Part shown: one piece after another, positions 6,208 to 10,131 of the stretch
How positions within the stretch are numbered: the first letter of the stretch is position 1
Layout of the letters: every line of letters starts with the position of its first letter
Assembly: GCA_018817165.1 (NCBI GenBank)
Contig: JAHITY010000022.1
Coordinates: 1-49,800, forward strand
From: Candidatus Omnitrophota bacterium
GTDB taxonomy: Bacteria; Omnitrophota; Gorgyraeia; B26-G9
Reading direction: 5' to 3'
DNA length: 49,800 nucleotides
Program-made: the position numbers and the translations under genes
The notes under the pieces: generated by a model
The model's database searches: none
Told to the model about the DNA's origin: nothing
Seen by the model: the letters and a program-made list of their open reading frames with translations, nothing else

Positions 6208-6235
6208 TTGAAAAAAATCAGAAATATGGTATATT
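6208..6235 (+). promoter_or_regulatory. Putative sigma70-type promoter TTGAAA-N16-TATATT
   Basis: -35 at 6208-6213, -10 at 6230-6235, just upstream of the tandem repeats. Confidence 0.4.
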
Positions 6236-6243
6236 TATTATAT

Positions 6244-6273
6244 GTTAAAATAAGTTAGTTTAAGTTAATCTAA
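6244..6273. repeat. Three tandem 10-bp repeats GTTAAAATAA / GTTAGTTTAA / GTTAATCTAA
   Basis: Direct reading; exactly 10-bp phased between promoter and GTG start of the HTH-EIIA gene. Confidence 0.65.
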
Positions 6274-6292
6274 GATATGAAAAGGTGCAATA

Positions 6293-7003
6293 GTGTCTAA
6301 AAATAAAATAATGACAACCCGAGAATTAGCGGAATATATTAAGCTTAATGAGAAGACTGTTATTAAAATGGCGCAAAATGGAAAAATCCCGGGAATAAAA
6401 GTCGGTAATCAGTGGCGTTTTCATCTGGCATCAATAGATAATTATTTGCAAGGTCAGATAGTTCAATCGCCCAATGAAGATTTAGACTTGGTTATTCAGA
6501 CAGAAAATGATATTATTCCTTTGTCAAGATTGATTAATCCTGGGCTAATTGATTTGAATATGGATTTAGATAAGCCGGATGCTGTTTTGACAAGACTGGT
6601 AAAAATAGCTAAAGATAATAATATCTCAGAAAATGATCAGTTGCTGTTAAAAGAATTAAGAGACCGGGAAAAAATGATGAGTACGGGGATTGGTAATGGG
6701 ATTGCGATTCCGCATCCTCGGAATCCTTCGGAAAAACTGTTTAAAAAGTCGAATATAATTTTCGCGCGGACACTTAAACCAATTAATTTTAATGCGCCTG
6801 ATGATAAAGCGGTTTCGATTTTTTTTATGATCTGCGCGCCGAATGAATTTGTTCACTTGAGGATTCTGGCCAAAATCGCTAAGTTTTTAAATAAAAAGGA
6901 AATCGGAAATAAATTAATGGCGGCTGAAAACCCGGTAAAATTAGTGCAGGTTTTTCTGGAGTTTGAACGGGCGAATATGTTTTCGAACTTAAAAGCTAAA
7001 TAA
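6293..7003 (+). CDS. Excisionase/AlpA-like HTH fused to PTS EIIA (fructose/Ntr-type) domain
   Basis: N-term MTTRELAEYIKLNEKTVIKMAQNGKIPGIKVGNQWRF; EIIA motif MMSTGIGNGIAIPHPR. GTG start. Confidence 0.85.
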   Translation: MSKNKIMTTRELAEYIKLNEKTVIKMAQNGKIPGIKVGNQWRFHLASIDNYLQGQIVQSPNEDLDLVIQTENDIIPLSRLINPGLIDLNMDLDKPDAVLTRLVKIAKDNNISENDQLLLKELRDREKMMSTGIGNGIAIPHPRNPSEKLFKKSNIIFARTLKPINFNAPDDKAVSIFFMICAPNEFVHLRILAKIAKFLNKKEIGNKLMAAENPVKLVQVFLEFERANMFSNLKAK

Positions 7004-7329
7004 TGAGAAAATATAAAGTTTTTTTAATTATAATAATTTGGATTATTGCTGCGCAATTATCGATCGATGGCTTAGCATTCGCGTCGGATCAAGCAGAGGT
7101 AGCAGAGCGTTGTTGCCAGTTAAGGGAATGTGAAAGTTATAAATCAGTTCCCCAAAGCCCGAGAACCCAAAAAATAGAGTTGAGCTCGCGGTTAGCGGTA
7201 ATCGCTTGTTTTGTTTATCGCCGATTACCGGCGTTTGTCTTTAGGACAGAAAAAAAATGTTCGATATTTATTTCTCAGCTTTTCAATAATTCTCCGCCTT
7301 TTTTATGTTTATTGCCTGAATTTTCTTAA
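7003..7329 (+). CDS. Small putative exported Cys-containing protein
   Basis: Start overlaps the upstream stop (TAATG); hydrophobic N-terminus ending in AFAS. No family recognised. Confidence 0.45.
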   Translation: MRKYKVFLIIIIWIIAAQLSIDGLAFASDQAEVAERCCQLRECESYKSVPQSPRTQKIELSSRLAVIACFVYRRLPAFVFRTEKKCSIFISQLFNNSPPFLCLLPEFS

Positions 7330-7371
7330 CATTCTTAATTAATAATATAAATATAAAAAAGAGGTGGAATA

Positions 7372-7719
7372 ATGGTTGTAGTTATATATCATAATAGTCT
7401 GGATTATTTGAAATCAGTGGCAAGTTTAGTCGAAGAGCAGGGGTTTAAAGCAAAACAAATCACGGAAAAAAAGAATATCGGGACGGAAATTGTCGGACCT
7501 AGTTCATCGGTTACCTATTTACATGGCAAAGCAGTGCCCTCATATAATAAGGCTCTGGTTGTGCATGTATCAAGTGAAAAAGAAGCAATGAATTTCCTGA
7601 GTATAATAGAAAATGATAAACTGTTGAATTTGTGTAATCTGCAGGATAAGGGATTTATTTCGATTTTGCCCCTGTGTTCATTTGAAGGTTTTAATAGTTT
7701 GGTTGCAAGCAAAGGATAG
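7372..7719 (+). CDS. Small cytosolic protein, possibly PII-like ferredoxin fold
   Basis: RBS GAGGTGG; pattern MVVVIYHNSLDYLKSVASLVEEQG ... KALVVHVSSEKEAMNFLSII suggests beta-alpha-beta. Fold is inference. Confidence 0.6.
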   Translation: MVVVIYHNSLDYLKSVASLVEEQGFKAKQITEKKNIGTEIVGPSSSVTYLHGKAVPSYNKALVVHVSSEKEAMNFLSIIENDKLLNLCNLQDKGFISILPLCSFEGFNSLVASKG

Positions 7720-7723
7720 GACA

Positions 7724-8647
7724 ATGAGTGAATTAAAAGAAGTTATAAAAGGAAAGCTGATTATAAAACAGTTGCCGGTTTGTGATAAATTCCAAGCAAT
7801 TAAATTTCTGATTAAGGAAGTATTTGCTTCGGAAAAAGCAAAGATCGCTGGTTTATCTGAAAAAGAAATTTTTGACAGTATTGTTTCCCGGGAAAATATG
7901 AGTACAACCGGCATTGGTTTTGGCTTGGCTATTCCTCATTCCCGGATAGAAGGCTGGGGGAGATTTGTTTTGGCAGTGGGCTTAAGTTACGAAGGCATTG
8001 ATTTTGACAGTATGGATAAAACTCAGGCTAAAATAATATGTTTGATGATATCTTCAGCAGATGAACCGTATGTTATATTGCAGACAACTGCCGCTATTAT
8101 TAAATTCCTGGAAAAGCAAAAAGGGGCGGAAGCGTTTTTAAAAACATACCCTGTTTTTAATCGAGCAAAAGATAAGCTATCCGCGCTTTGTTTGGAAGTT
8201 GATGAACAGATATTCGCGAAAGATGTTATCCGCCCGGTGCAGGCATGTGTTAATCTGAACGATTCAATCGAAACAGCTACCCGGTTAATGCATTTAAAGC
8301 ATTTTGATGTTTTGCCAGTAGTCGATGATGAGTATAATTTTTGCGGTCAGTTAACTTGCTTGGATGTTTTTCAATACGGAATGCCGAATTTTTTTAATAA
8401 TTTAAAGACGATATCTTTTGTCAGACATATTGACCCATTTGAAAAGTATTTTAGAATTCATCGGAATCTTAAAGTAAGCAATTTTTATAAGCATGCTGAA
8501 CCGATTAGTCAGGACAAAACTTTATTGGAAATCATCTTTGAGTTAAGCATAAAACAACGGTCAAAGTTATTTGTGACAAATGAACGCAATAAATTAATCG
8601 GGGTTATTGATCGCTTTACCATAATAGATAAAATCTTAGTATTTTAA
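7724..8647 (+). CDS. PTS EIIA domain - CBS-pair protein
   Basis: EIIA motif MSTTGIGFGLAIPHSR; C-terminal CBS-type SIETATRLMHLKHFDVLPVVDDEYNFCGQLT and KLFVTNERNKLIGVIDRF. ATG at 7724 starts MSELKEVIKGK; 7682 is an upstream in-frame ATG. Confidence 0.85.
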   Translation: MSELKEVIKGKLIIKQLPVCDKFQAIKFLIKEVFASEKAKIAGLSEKEIFDSIVSRENMSTTGIGFGLAIPHSRIEGWGRFVLAVGLSYEGIDFDSMDKTQAKIICLMISSADEPYVILQTTAAIIKFLEKQKGAEAFLKTYPVFNRAKDKLSALCLEVDEQIFAKDVIRPVQACVNLNDSIETATRLMHLKHFDVLPVVDDEYNFCGQLTCLDVFQYGMPNFFNNLKTISFVRHIDPFEKYFRIHRNLKVSNFYKHAEPISQDKTLLEIIFELSIKQRSKLFVTNERNKLIGVIDRFTIIDKILVF

Positions 8648-8657
8648 ATCAGGAGAT

Positions 8658-9959
8658 ATGATGAAAGCATTACTTTCGGTTATTATTTTTGTGGGTGCTT
8701 ATATTGCTATTGCTTCCGATAAAGTCAGTAAAACAATAGTCGCGGTAATCGGCGCTTGTTTGGTTATTATGCTGCATTTGGTGTCATTTGAAGATGCTAT
8801 GCGCGCAGTTGATTTAAATGTAATTTTTCTACTTGTTGGGATGATGACTTGTGTTTTTATTCTTTCAAAAACCGGTTTTTTTGAGTGGGCAGCGATCAGC
8901 GTGGCTAAGCATTCTCGGGGAAATCCTTTTTTGATAATGTGTTTGCTTCTGTTGGTAACAGGAGTATTATCGGCTTTTTTTGATAATGTGACGACAATTA
9001 TTCTTCTGGTGCCCTTAACTATTCTTATCGCTGAACTGCTGGAGATCAATCCCATACCGTTTATTATTCTGGAAACATTGGCTTCAAATATTGGAGGAAC
9101 AGCTACGCTGATCGGGGATCCGCCAAATATTATTATTGGATCCGCCGCCAAATTGTCATTTTCCGATTTTTTAGTAAATCTTTCTCCTGTGGTAATCCTA
9201 ATTTTCGCTGTTTTCCTGTCCACTGTTTTTTTATTATTTCGCAATGCCTTTACTGTCCAGGAGTCAATGAAAAAACGGGTGATTAATGCTATTCCGCATT
9301 TAGCAATTGTCGATAAAAAAAACATGATCAAATCGTTGATAATTATGGGGGTGATTTTTATTGGCTTTTTCTTTCACGCGAAACTGAATATAGAGCCTGG
9401 GATTGTCGCGCTGGGCGGCAGTATGCTGATGATGCTTTTTTGTAAATCAGACAGTGAAGAGACTTTGATGAAAGTCGAGTGGGGTGTTATTTTCTTTTTT
9501 ATCGGAATGTTTATAATGATCGCGGCTTTGGACGCAAATGGGGTTATTGAAAAAGCGGGACAGCTGATATTGAATGCTTCGGGACAAAATTTATTTCATG
9601 TATGTCTTATTGTGCTTTTTGGTTCAGCTTTGTTTTCCGCGATATTAGACAATATTCCGTTTGTGATCACGATGGTTCCCTTGGTTAAGAATTTTATTGA
9701 GCATTTCTCTGGCTCTTTGGGCACGCAAAATATCGAACAAATAAGCCAGCCTTTATGGTGGGCTTTGGCTCTGGGCGCCTGTTTAGGCGGCAATATGACA
9801 GTTATTGGCGCTTCAGCGAATGTGGTTATGGTCAGGATCGCGGCACGTAATAAATATAAGGTAACCTTTGGCAAATTTCTAAAATATGGCGTACCGTTTA
9901 CAATCCAATCATTGATCATAAGCGCTTTATATCTTTGGCTTAGATATTTTAAAGCTTGA
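8658..9959 (+). CDS. ArsB/NhaD-family ion transporter
   Basis: ASNIGGTATLIGDPPNIIIG signature and about a dozen TM segments; second-half GACLGGNMTVIGASANVV. Confidence 0.88.
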   Translation: MMKALLSVIIFVGAYIAIASDKVSKTIVAVIGACLVIMLHLVSFEDAMRAVDLNVIFLLVGMMTCVFILSKTGFFEWAAISVAKHSRGNPFLIMCLLLLVTGVLSAFFDNVTTIILLVPLTILIAELLEINPIPFIILETLASNIGGTATLIGDPPNIIIGSAAKLSFSDFLVNLSPVVILIFAVFLSTVFLLFRNAFTVQESMKKRVINAIPHLAIVDKKNMIKSLIIMGVIFIGFFFHAKLNIEPGIVALGGSMLMMLFCKSDSEETLMKVEWGVIFFFIGMFIMIAALDANGVIEKAGQLILNASGQNLFHVCLIVLFGSALFSAILDNIPFVITMVPLVKNFIEHFSGSLGTQNIEQISQPLWWALALGACLGGNMTVIGASANVVMVRIAARNKYKVTFGKFLKYGVPFTIQSLIISALYLWLRYFKA

Positions 9960-9973
9960 TTAAAGAAACAGCG

Positions 9974-10034
9974 TATAGCCCTTCGACAGGCTCAGGATAA
10001 ACGGATAGCCCTTCGACTTCGCTCAGGGTAAACG
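9974..10034. repeat. Two imperfect direct repeats TATAGCCCTTCGACAGGCTCAGGATAAACG / GATAGCCCTTCGACTTCGCTCAGGGTAAACG
   Basis: Adjacent about 30-bp copies; second contains CCCT...AGGG palindrome. Confidence 0.75.
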
Positions 10035-10131
10035 TTTAGGAAAAACAGAAAGCTTTTTTGGCTCATAGACCATTAGCTATTGACCATTGATTTATGACCT
10101 TCGACTAAATACTGAGAAAAGGAGACAGGTA

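Follow-up and report, generated by a model that had tools for sequence, protein, structure and literature searches.

The 49.8-kb stretch of DNA analysed here (the window) comes from a metagenome-assembled genome (MAG) of the Omnitrophota (3.08 Mb, 93% complete) and carries, at positions 6293-9959, a gene cluster in which two proteins with EIIA domains of the phosphotransferase system (PTS) are encoded beside an ion transporter. A sequence-only reading of this DNA had claimed five co-directional, tightly spaced genes, and all five open reading frames are confirmed on the + strand, with a 1-base overlap followed by gaps of 42, 4 and 10 bases when the ATG at 7724 is taken as the start of the EIIA-CBS gene. 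The cluster and the region upstream of it are laid out as follows.

6208..6235, + strand: sigma-70-like promoter, TTGAAA-16-TATATT, with TG preceding the second hexamer (consensus scan, 10/12)
6232..6281, + strand: putative operator of the helix-turn-helix (HTH) protein HTH-EIIA, five 10-bp direct repeats with the consensus AAGTTAATAT (exact triple unique in the window; specific to HTH-EIIA promoters)
6293..7003, + strand: gene 1, HTH-EIIA, with Pfam HTH_17 (excisionase-type) and PTS_EIIA_2; phospho-His141 at 6713-6715
7003..7329, + strand: gene 2, small protein, exported or anchored in the membrane, with an (N/H)SPP motif at its C-terminus (no Pfam match; counterparts in the same slot of six other loci)
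7372..7719, + strand: gene 3, small PII-like protein of 115 amino acids (model with PII topology, PII fold matches; its family adjoins EIIA and ion exchangers)
7724..8647, + strand: gene 4, EIIA-CBS, PTS_EIIA_2 and a CBS pair (Pfam, alignments, model and fold search); phospho-His72 at 7937-7939
8658..9959, + strand: gene 5, ion-transporter-superfamily permease of CitMHS/ArsB/DASS type (Pfam and NCBIfam; solved ArsB and VcINDY are relatives; adjoins EIIA-CBS in 29/32 loci)

The two fusions that had been proposed, an HTH with one EIIA domain and a CBS pair with the other, are both borne out by Pfam. Gene 1 matches HTH_17 (1.8e-12) and PTS_EIIA_2 (3.2e-31), while gene 4 matches PTS_EIIA_2 (6.3e-17) and has two CBS stretches (8.4e-10). 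The phospho-His motif is likewise kept in both EIIA domains, as His141 in HTH-EIIA and His72 in EIIA-CBS. In an alignment of EIIA-CBS with 30 homologues, R56, E57, T62, P71, H72 and R74 are invariant, so that the active-site His and Arg typical of the PTS_EIIA_2 family (H72 and R56) are present throughout, and the PH motif is retained in the HTH-EIIA sequences examined. A structure model of EIIA-CBS built from the 30-row alignment (predicted local distance difference test score, pLDDT, of 85) contains an EIIA domain and a CBS pair, which match EIIA-Ntr and CBS-pair structures in the PDB, and the fold of the CBS pair matches CBS pairs bound to AMP, ATP and c-di-AMP. Nucleotide sensing through the CBS pair had been suggested earlier. 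The GhxT/SxxD ribose motif is fitted by GQLTCLD in CBS1, whose last position varies among homologues, but not by GVIDRFT in CBS2, and by sequence only one of the two motifs thus looks nucleotide-competent. The segment between the CBS cores reads SFVRHIDPFEKYF in most members; few parts of the protein are as well conserved, and it is a candidate contact site for the transporter. At one locus (L080:1590-2518, G052), the EIIA and CBS parts lie on two separate reading frames, which may reflect a split gene or a sequencing error.

Whether the EIIA domains could be served by a phosphorelay had been set beforehand as a refutation test, and the genome encodes both EI and HPr, one of each, grouped on contig C123 with PtsN and a YvcK-like gene. 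The claim that no sugar EIIB or EIIC is present also holds genome-wide for the families tested, as PTS_EIIC (PF02378) and PTS_IIB (PF02302) found no match in the whole 93% complete genome while controls matched (the mannose-, ascorbate- and glucitol-type families were not searched). With no EIIB or EIIC of the tested families, a sugar PTS is rejected. Because EI, HPr and PtsN are present but EIIC and EIIB of the tested families are not, the EIIA domains of this genome are most likely regulatory, as in a PTS-Ntr-like system with EI, HPr and EIIA-Ntr-type proteins. A strict PTS-Ntr is also rejected, since the EI (593 amino acids) lacks the N-terminal GAF domain of EI-Ntr/PtsP, its PEP-utilisers_N domain starting so near the N-terminus that no space is left for one. 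Besides PtsN, the remaining EIIA domains of the genome belong to fusions, one with a Na+/H+ exchanger, one with an amino-acid permease and one with the F1 ATP synthase alpha subunit. EIIA use in this lineage is thus linked with transport across membranes and energetics, not with sugars.

The transporter belongs to the CitMHS/IT superfamily, with a full-length score of 282.6 bits against a gathering score of 31.9; CitMHS is its best Pfam match (5.5e-84), followed by ArsB (1.3e-25). The earlier label of an 'ArsB-NhaD' transporter is right at this superfamily level and fails below it. Among NCBIfam matches at E <= 0.1 there is no NhaD model, the best full-length match, to MamN, reaches 183 of the 500 bits required, and the ArsB models score 125 against 457 bits (NF011980) and 124 against 415 bits (TIGR00935). 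Membership of the ArsB, NhaD and MamN families is rejected accordingly. DASS models of NCBIfam also match, and the solved relatives are ArsB and VcINDY.

Conservation of the gene order, which had been put forward as a check, is found for a core and in part for the longer cassette. EIIA-CBS orthologues occur in 19/384 genomes of the phylum (E <= 1e-25). A scan of public genomes placed EIIA-CBS in 30 loci, for the most part in Omnitrophota MAGs, and reaching MAGs labelled Auribacterota, Verrucomicrobia, Planctomycetota, Brocadiaceae, Dependentiae and Cloacimonetes; as the scan used a single peptide pattern, this range is a minimum, and the labels of MAGs can be mistaken. Counting the window, 29 of 32 loci have a full-length transporter of the class found in the window directly next to EIIA-CBS, mostly 0-55 bases away; of the other three loci, a contig end truncates two, and L082 is genuinely without an adjacent transporter. 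The conserved core is thus two genes, EIIA-CBS and then the CitMHS/ArsB-type transporter. Protein distances of the two correlate (r = 0.93 overall, 0.81 in a close subset), as common descent alone could bring about. In two Planctomycetota loci (L106, L113) and one from Cloacimonetes (L110), two tandem transporter copies lie behind EIIA-CBS.

The exact five-gene order is found in the window and in one other genome (G003) and is rejected as a conserved unit; the unit is modular. One genome (G206) keeps the exported protein, the PII-like protein, EIIA-CBS and the transporter, and has no HTH-EIIA nearby. Two others (G270, G326) combine HTH-EIIA, the exported protein and the PII-like protein with an EIIA protein that lacks CBS domains, and here a CPA2-type exchanger (Pfam Na_H_Exchanger in G270) lies directly downstream in G270 and third downstream in G326. 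A further genome (G175) encodes HTH-EIIA, a PII-like-EIIA fusion and an exchanger, and in another (G241) HTH-EIIA and the beginning of a PII-like-EIIA fusion are found at a contig end. That the transporter is swapped for a CPA2-type Na+/H+ exchanger while the leading genes are kept, in two genomes, points to a portable control cassette for cation/proton antiporters. This replacement is also the best available hint that the window transporter is a cation/proton antiporter too.

Genes 2 and 3 have no match in Pfam or NCBIfam. An AlphaFold2 model of the 115-residue protein (3-row alignment, pLDDT 71) shows the order E-H-E-(loop)-E-H-E with short extra helices, that is, the ferredoxin-like strand/helix order of the PII superfamily with a loop between strands 2 and 3. 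Among the first 50 Foldseek matches in the PDB, PII proteins predominate (GlnK, GlnZ, PstA, PotN) at modest E-values of 3e-3 to 2e-2. Given this topology, these matches and the lack of any PII family match in Pfam or NCBIfam, the protein is likely PII-like by predicted fold, not by sequence family, which upholds the earlier description as far as the fold goes. For the exported protein, alignment with its G003 and G206 counterparts suggested the C-terminal (N/H)SPP motif. When 3784 short reading frames were screened for this motif together with a signal-like start, seven matched, all in the exported-protein slot of EIIA operons, and four of the seven are independent of the motif definition. At two loci (L076:1156-1635, L102:1263-1748), a separate CBS-pair protein replaces the PII-like protein between the exported protein and EIIA-CBS.

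Upstream of gene 1, GTTA occurs exactly at 6244, 6254 and 6264, with 10-bp spacing, and imperfect units flank it at 6234 and 6274. The exact triple is found once in the window and in none of 20 dinucleotide-preserving shuffles, and across 429 kb of neighbourhood loci all matches with at most one mismatch lie at HTH-EIIA promoters. Nine of the 11 HTH-EIIA promoters first examined carry 3-5 repeat units at the start region, and a pattern search of 14 whole genomes added one further AAGTTAATAT-type array, preceding a second HTH-EIIA gene in G164. The consensus is drawn from 40 units pooled from these ten promoters. Where a -10-like box is visible, the repeats lie at or slightly past it. Promoter-like matches are frequent by chance (18 found against 14.2 expected in the region of the window), while a -35/-10 pair is found at the equivalent position upstream of most HTH-EIIA genes. 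The GTTA triple alone is not specific in G002 and G003, where the genome-wide search also matched GTTAC-type 10-bp arrays with another flank. Many such direct-repeat arrays, of the type GTTAC(T/A)A(A/T) and with a flank unlike the HTH-EIIA operator, are present in these two genomes. In the window genome, the sole other GTTA triple has a different flank, and the HTH-EIIA regulator therefore looks local to its operon. Judged by sequence, the repeats are probably the HTH-EIIA operator, and the conserved array gives independent support to the transcriptional control that had been assigned to this protein. The winged-HTH protein BldC forms head-to-tail multimers on AT-rich direct repeats (PMC5859096), which makes repression by HTH-EIIA multimers across the transcription start region a natural model, by analogy, for these tandem 10-bp arrays at promoters.

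The reading of the locus that we favour on balance is that of a regulatory-PTS cassette with two levels of control over a secondary cation/proton (or related ion) transporter. This reading rests on the domains, the conservation of the active sites, the presence of EI and HPr, the absence of EIIB and EIIC, the adjacency of the genes, the swapping of the transporter and the repeat array, while the ion, the direction of regulation, phosphorylation, the nucleotide, the protein contacts and DNA binding are what we infer. EI and HPr, encoded elsewhere in the genome, would load the EIIA domains with phosphate from phosphoenolpyruvate (PEP). EIIA-CBS would gate the transporter from the cytoplasmic side, its EIIA half sensing the PEP/pyruvate state through His72 and its CBS pair an adenine nucleotide; the unphosphorylated form would most likely be inhibitory, as unphosphorylated PtsN is towards YcgO. 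The PII-like protein may add a further regulatory subunit that can be exchanged, and the exported one may act as an accessory at or outside the membrane. At the transcriptional level, HTH-EIIA would occupy the phased AAGTTAATAT repeats around the transcription start and so repress its own operon, and phosphorylation of His141 would alter this binding. The earlier proposal of combined PTS and nucleotide control over transporter and transcription is partly supported; it gains from EI and HPr, the syntenic core and the repeat array, but is tempered by an exchangeable transporter class, an unproven substrate and a single fitting CBS motif.

Several observations weigh against the favoured reading. 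The best relatives of the transporter include arsenite and dicarboxylate carriers, the EIIA-CBS copy at L082 has no neighbouring transporter, the full five-gene set is rare, a genome of the same genus that was expected to share the locus (G007) has no EIIA-CBS, and two of the 11 HTH-EIIA promoters show no clear array (weak at L080, none at L103). In a different account, the transporter is an arsenite/antimonite or organic-anion (di/tricarboxylate) carrier that the EIIA proteins tune to carbon supply, with no cation/proton antiport. The Pfam matches to CitMHS and ArsB, the NCBIfam matches to ArsB and DASS and the solved relatives ArsB and VcINDY speak for such a carrier. We nevertheless consider it unlikely, given that every curated NCBIfam family cut-off is missed widely, that no ars regulator or reductase was seen among the annotated neighbours, and that the same cassette is elsewhere coupled to Na+/H+ exchangers.

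It is more doubtful still that EIIA-CBS is mainly a nucleotide sensor whose EIIA domain is an unphosphorylated scaffold, leaving HTH-EIIA as the sole phosphorelay-responsive part. The EIIA domain of EIIA-CBS is indeed diverged (62 bits against 109 for HTH-EIIA), but the invariance of R56, E57, H72 and R74 in 30 homologues from several phyla would be needless for a mere scaffold. That unrelated genes came to be co-directional neighbours by accident would fit the patchy distribution (19/384 genomes), yet this is highly improbable, being already contradicted by the conserved adjacency in 29/32 loci across phyla, and the leading genes are reassembled with another antiporter class.

Regulation of transporters by such proteins has precedents. 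The K+/H+ antiporter YcgO of E. coli is inhibited when unphosphorylated PtsN binds to its cytoplasmic region, a contact that phosphorylation weakens (PMC11808508); control of K+ homeostasis by PTS-Ntr is a recurrent theme (PMC13104625). SbtB is a PII-type protein that gates the secondary transporter SbtA, and in LacS an EIIA-like domain regulates the transporter (PMC10710835). The window system unites these principles in one operon. It shares with PTS-Ntr (E. coli PtsN acting on YcgO, TrkA and KdpD; PMC11808508, PMC13104625) the EIIA Pfam family, an EI/HPr-type donor, the lack of a sugar permease partner and an ion transporter as presumed target. Unlike in PTS-Ntr, its EIIA domains are fused to CBS or HTH, dedicated to one operon and encoded beside the transporter, which is from another superfamily, and a PII-like protein and a putative operator array are added. 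As in SbtB-SbtA, a small PII-type protein is encoded beside a secondary transporter (there for bicarbonate), but the window protein has no detectable PII sequence relation and the transporters are unrelated. LacS also devotes an EIIA-type domain to a non-PTS transporter; its domain, however, is of another EIIA family (EIIA-Glc-like), serves a sugar transporter and is fused rather than separate. BldC resembles HTH-EIIA in its short winged-HTH-type domain and its tandem direct repeats at about one helical turn, whereas HTH-EIIA has a phosphorelay domain, scores 17 bits against a cut-off of 77 with the BldC model, and is a putative DNA-binding protein. MamN, a magnetosome transporter described with homology to a Na+/H+ antiporter (PMC3905215), is the best full-length NCBIfam match, yet the window transporter falls far under the equivalog cut-off and no magnetosome genes were noticed among the neighbours read. 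We found no earlier description of the system in the literature on EIIA with CBS, EIIA with ArsB/NhaD or Omnitrophota, a coverage that leaves out most subscription papers.

In uncultured Omnitrophota, proteins of a phosphorelay that normally serves sugar uptake seem to have been remodelled into a dedicated control cassette that regulates itself and lies next to ion transporters. This suggests a direct coupling, in these cells, between metabolic energy state and the balance of ions and protons. PTS-Ntr touches K+ transport in proteobacteria, and why a PEP-driven phosphorelay governs ions is unclear (PMC13104625); here, across little-known phyla, operons and gene fusions build the link in, together with a regulator of its own and an operator that can be tested. 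As a plausible but more tentative extension, a portable cassette (a self-regulating HTH-EIIA with its phased-repeat operator, the exported (N/H)SPP peptide, the PII-like protein, and EIIA with or without CBS) may be attached, in uncultured bacteria, to cation/proton antiporters of unrelated classes, with PEP/pyruvate, nucleotide and PII-type signals jointly setting ion gradients. For tests in a laboratory host, the locus offers two precisely located histidines, a protein that may gate the transporter and a DNA element of 10 bp.

Other EIIA proteins were seen in the surrounding genomes. An F1 ATP synthase alpha subunit of about 741 amino acids with a C-terminal PTS_EIIA_2 domain is encoded in an atp gene cluster at L044:2843-5068 (G000:C115) and L149:4449-6674 (G007:C49); because the C-terminal part is 88% identical between these two genomes of the genus, the fusion is not an assembly chimera. 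Contig C59 of the window genome additionally carries alpha/beta pairs of a second F-type and of a V/A-type enzyme. A 573-residue Na+/H+ exchanger (L042:4684-6405) carries a C-terminal PTS_EIIA_2 domain, and an amino-acid permease is fused to one (L043:2432-4270). EIIA domains on open frames of about 610-640 amino acids, most of them unannotated, are common in the phylum (a match in 84/384 genomes). HTH-EIIA-type proteins also lie within clusters of complex-I/hydrogenase-like membrane subunits (NADHdh, Proton_antipo_M, Oxidored_q6) at L045:4762-5475 (G007) and L040:12216-12905 (G002). Directly 3' of the transporter gene, at 9978-10036 of the window, there are two copies of the repeat CCCTTCGAC...CTCAGG...TAAACG.

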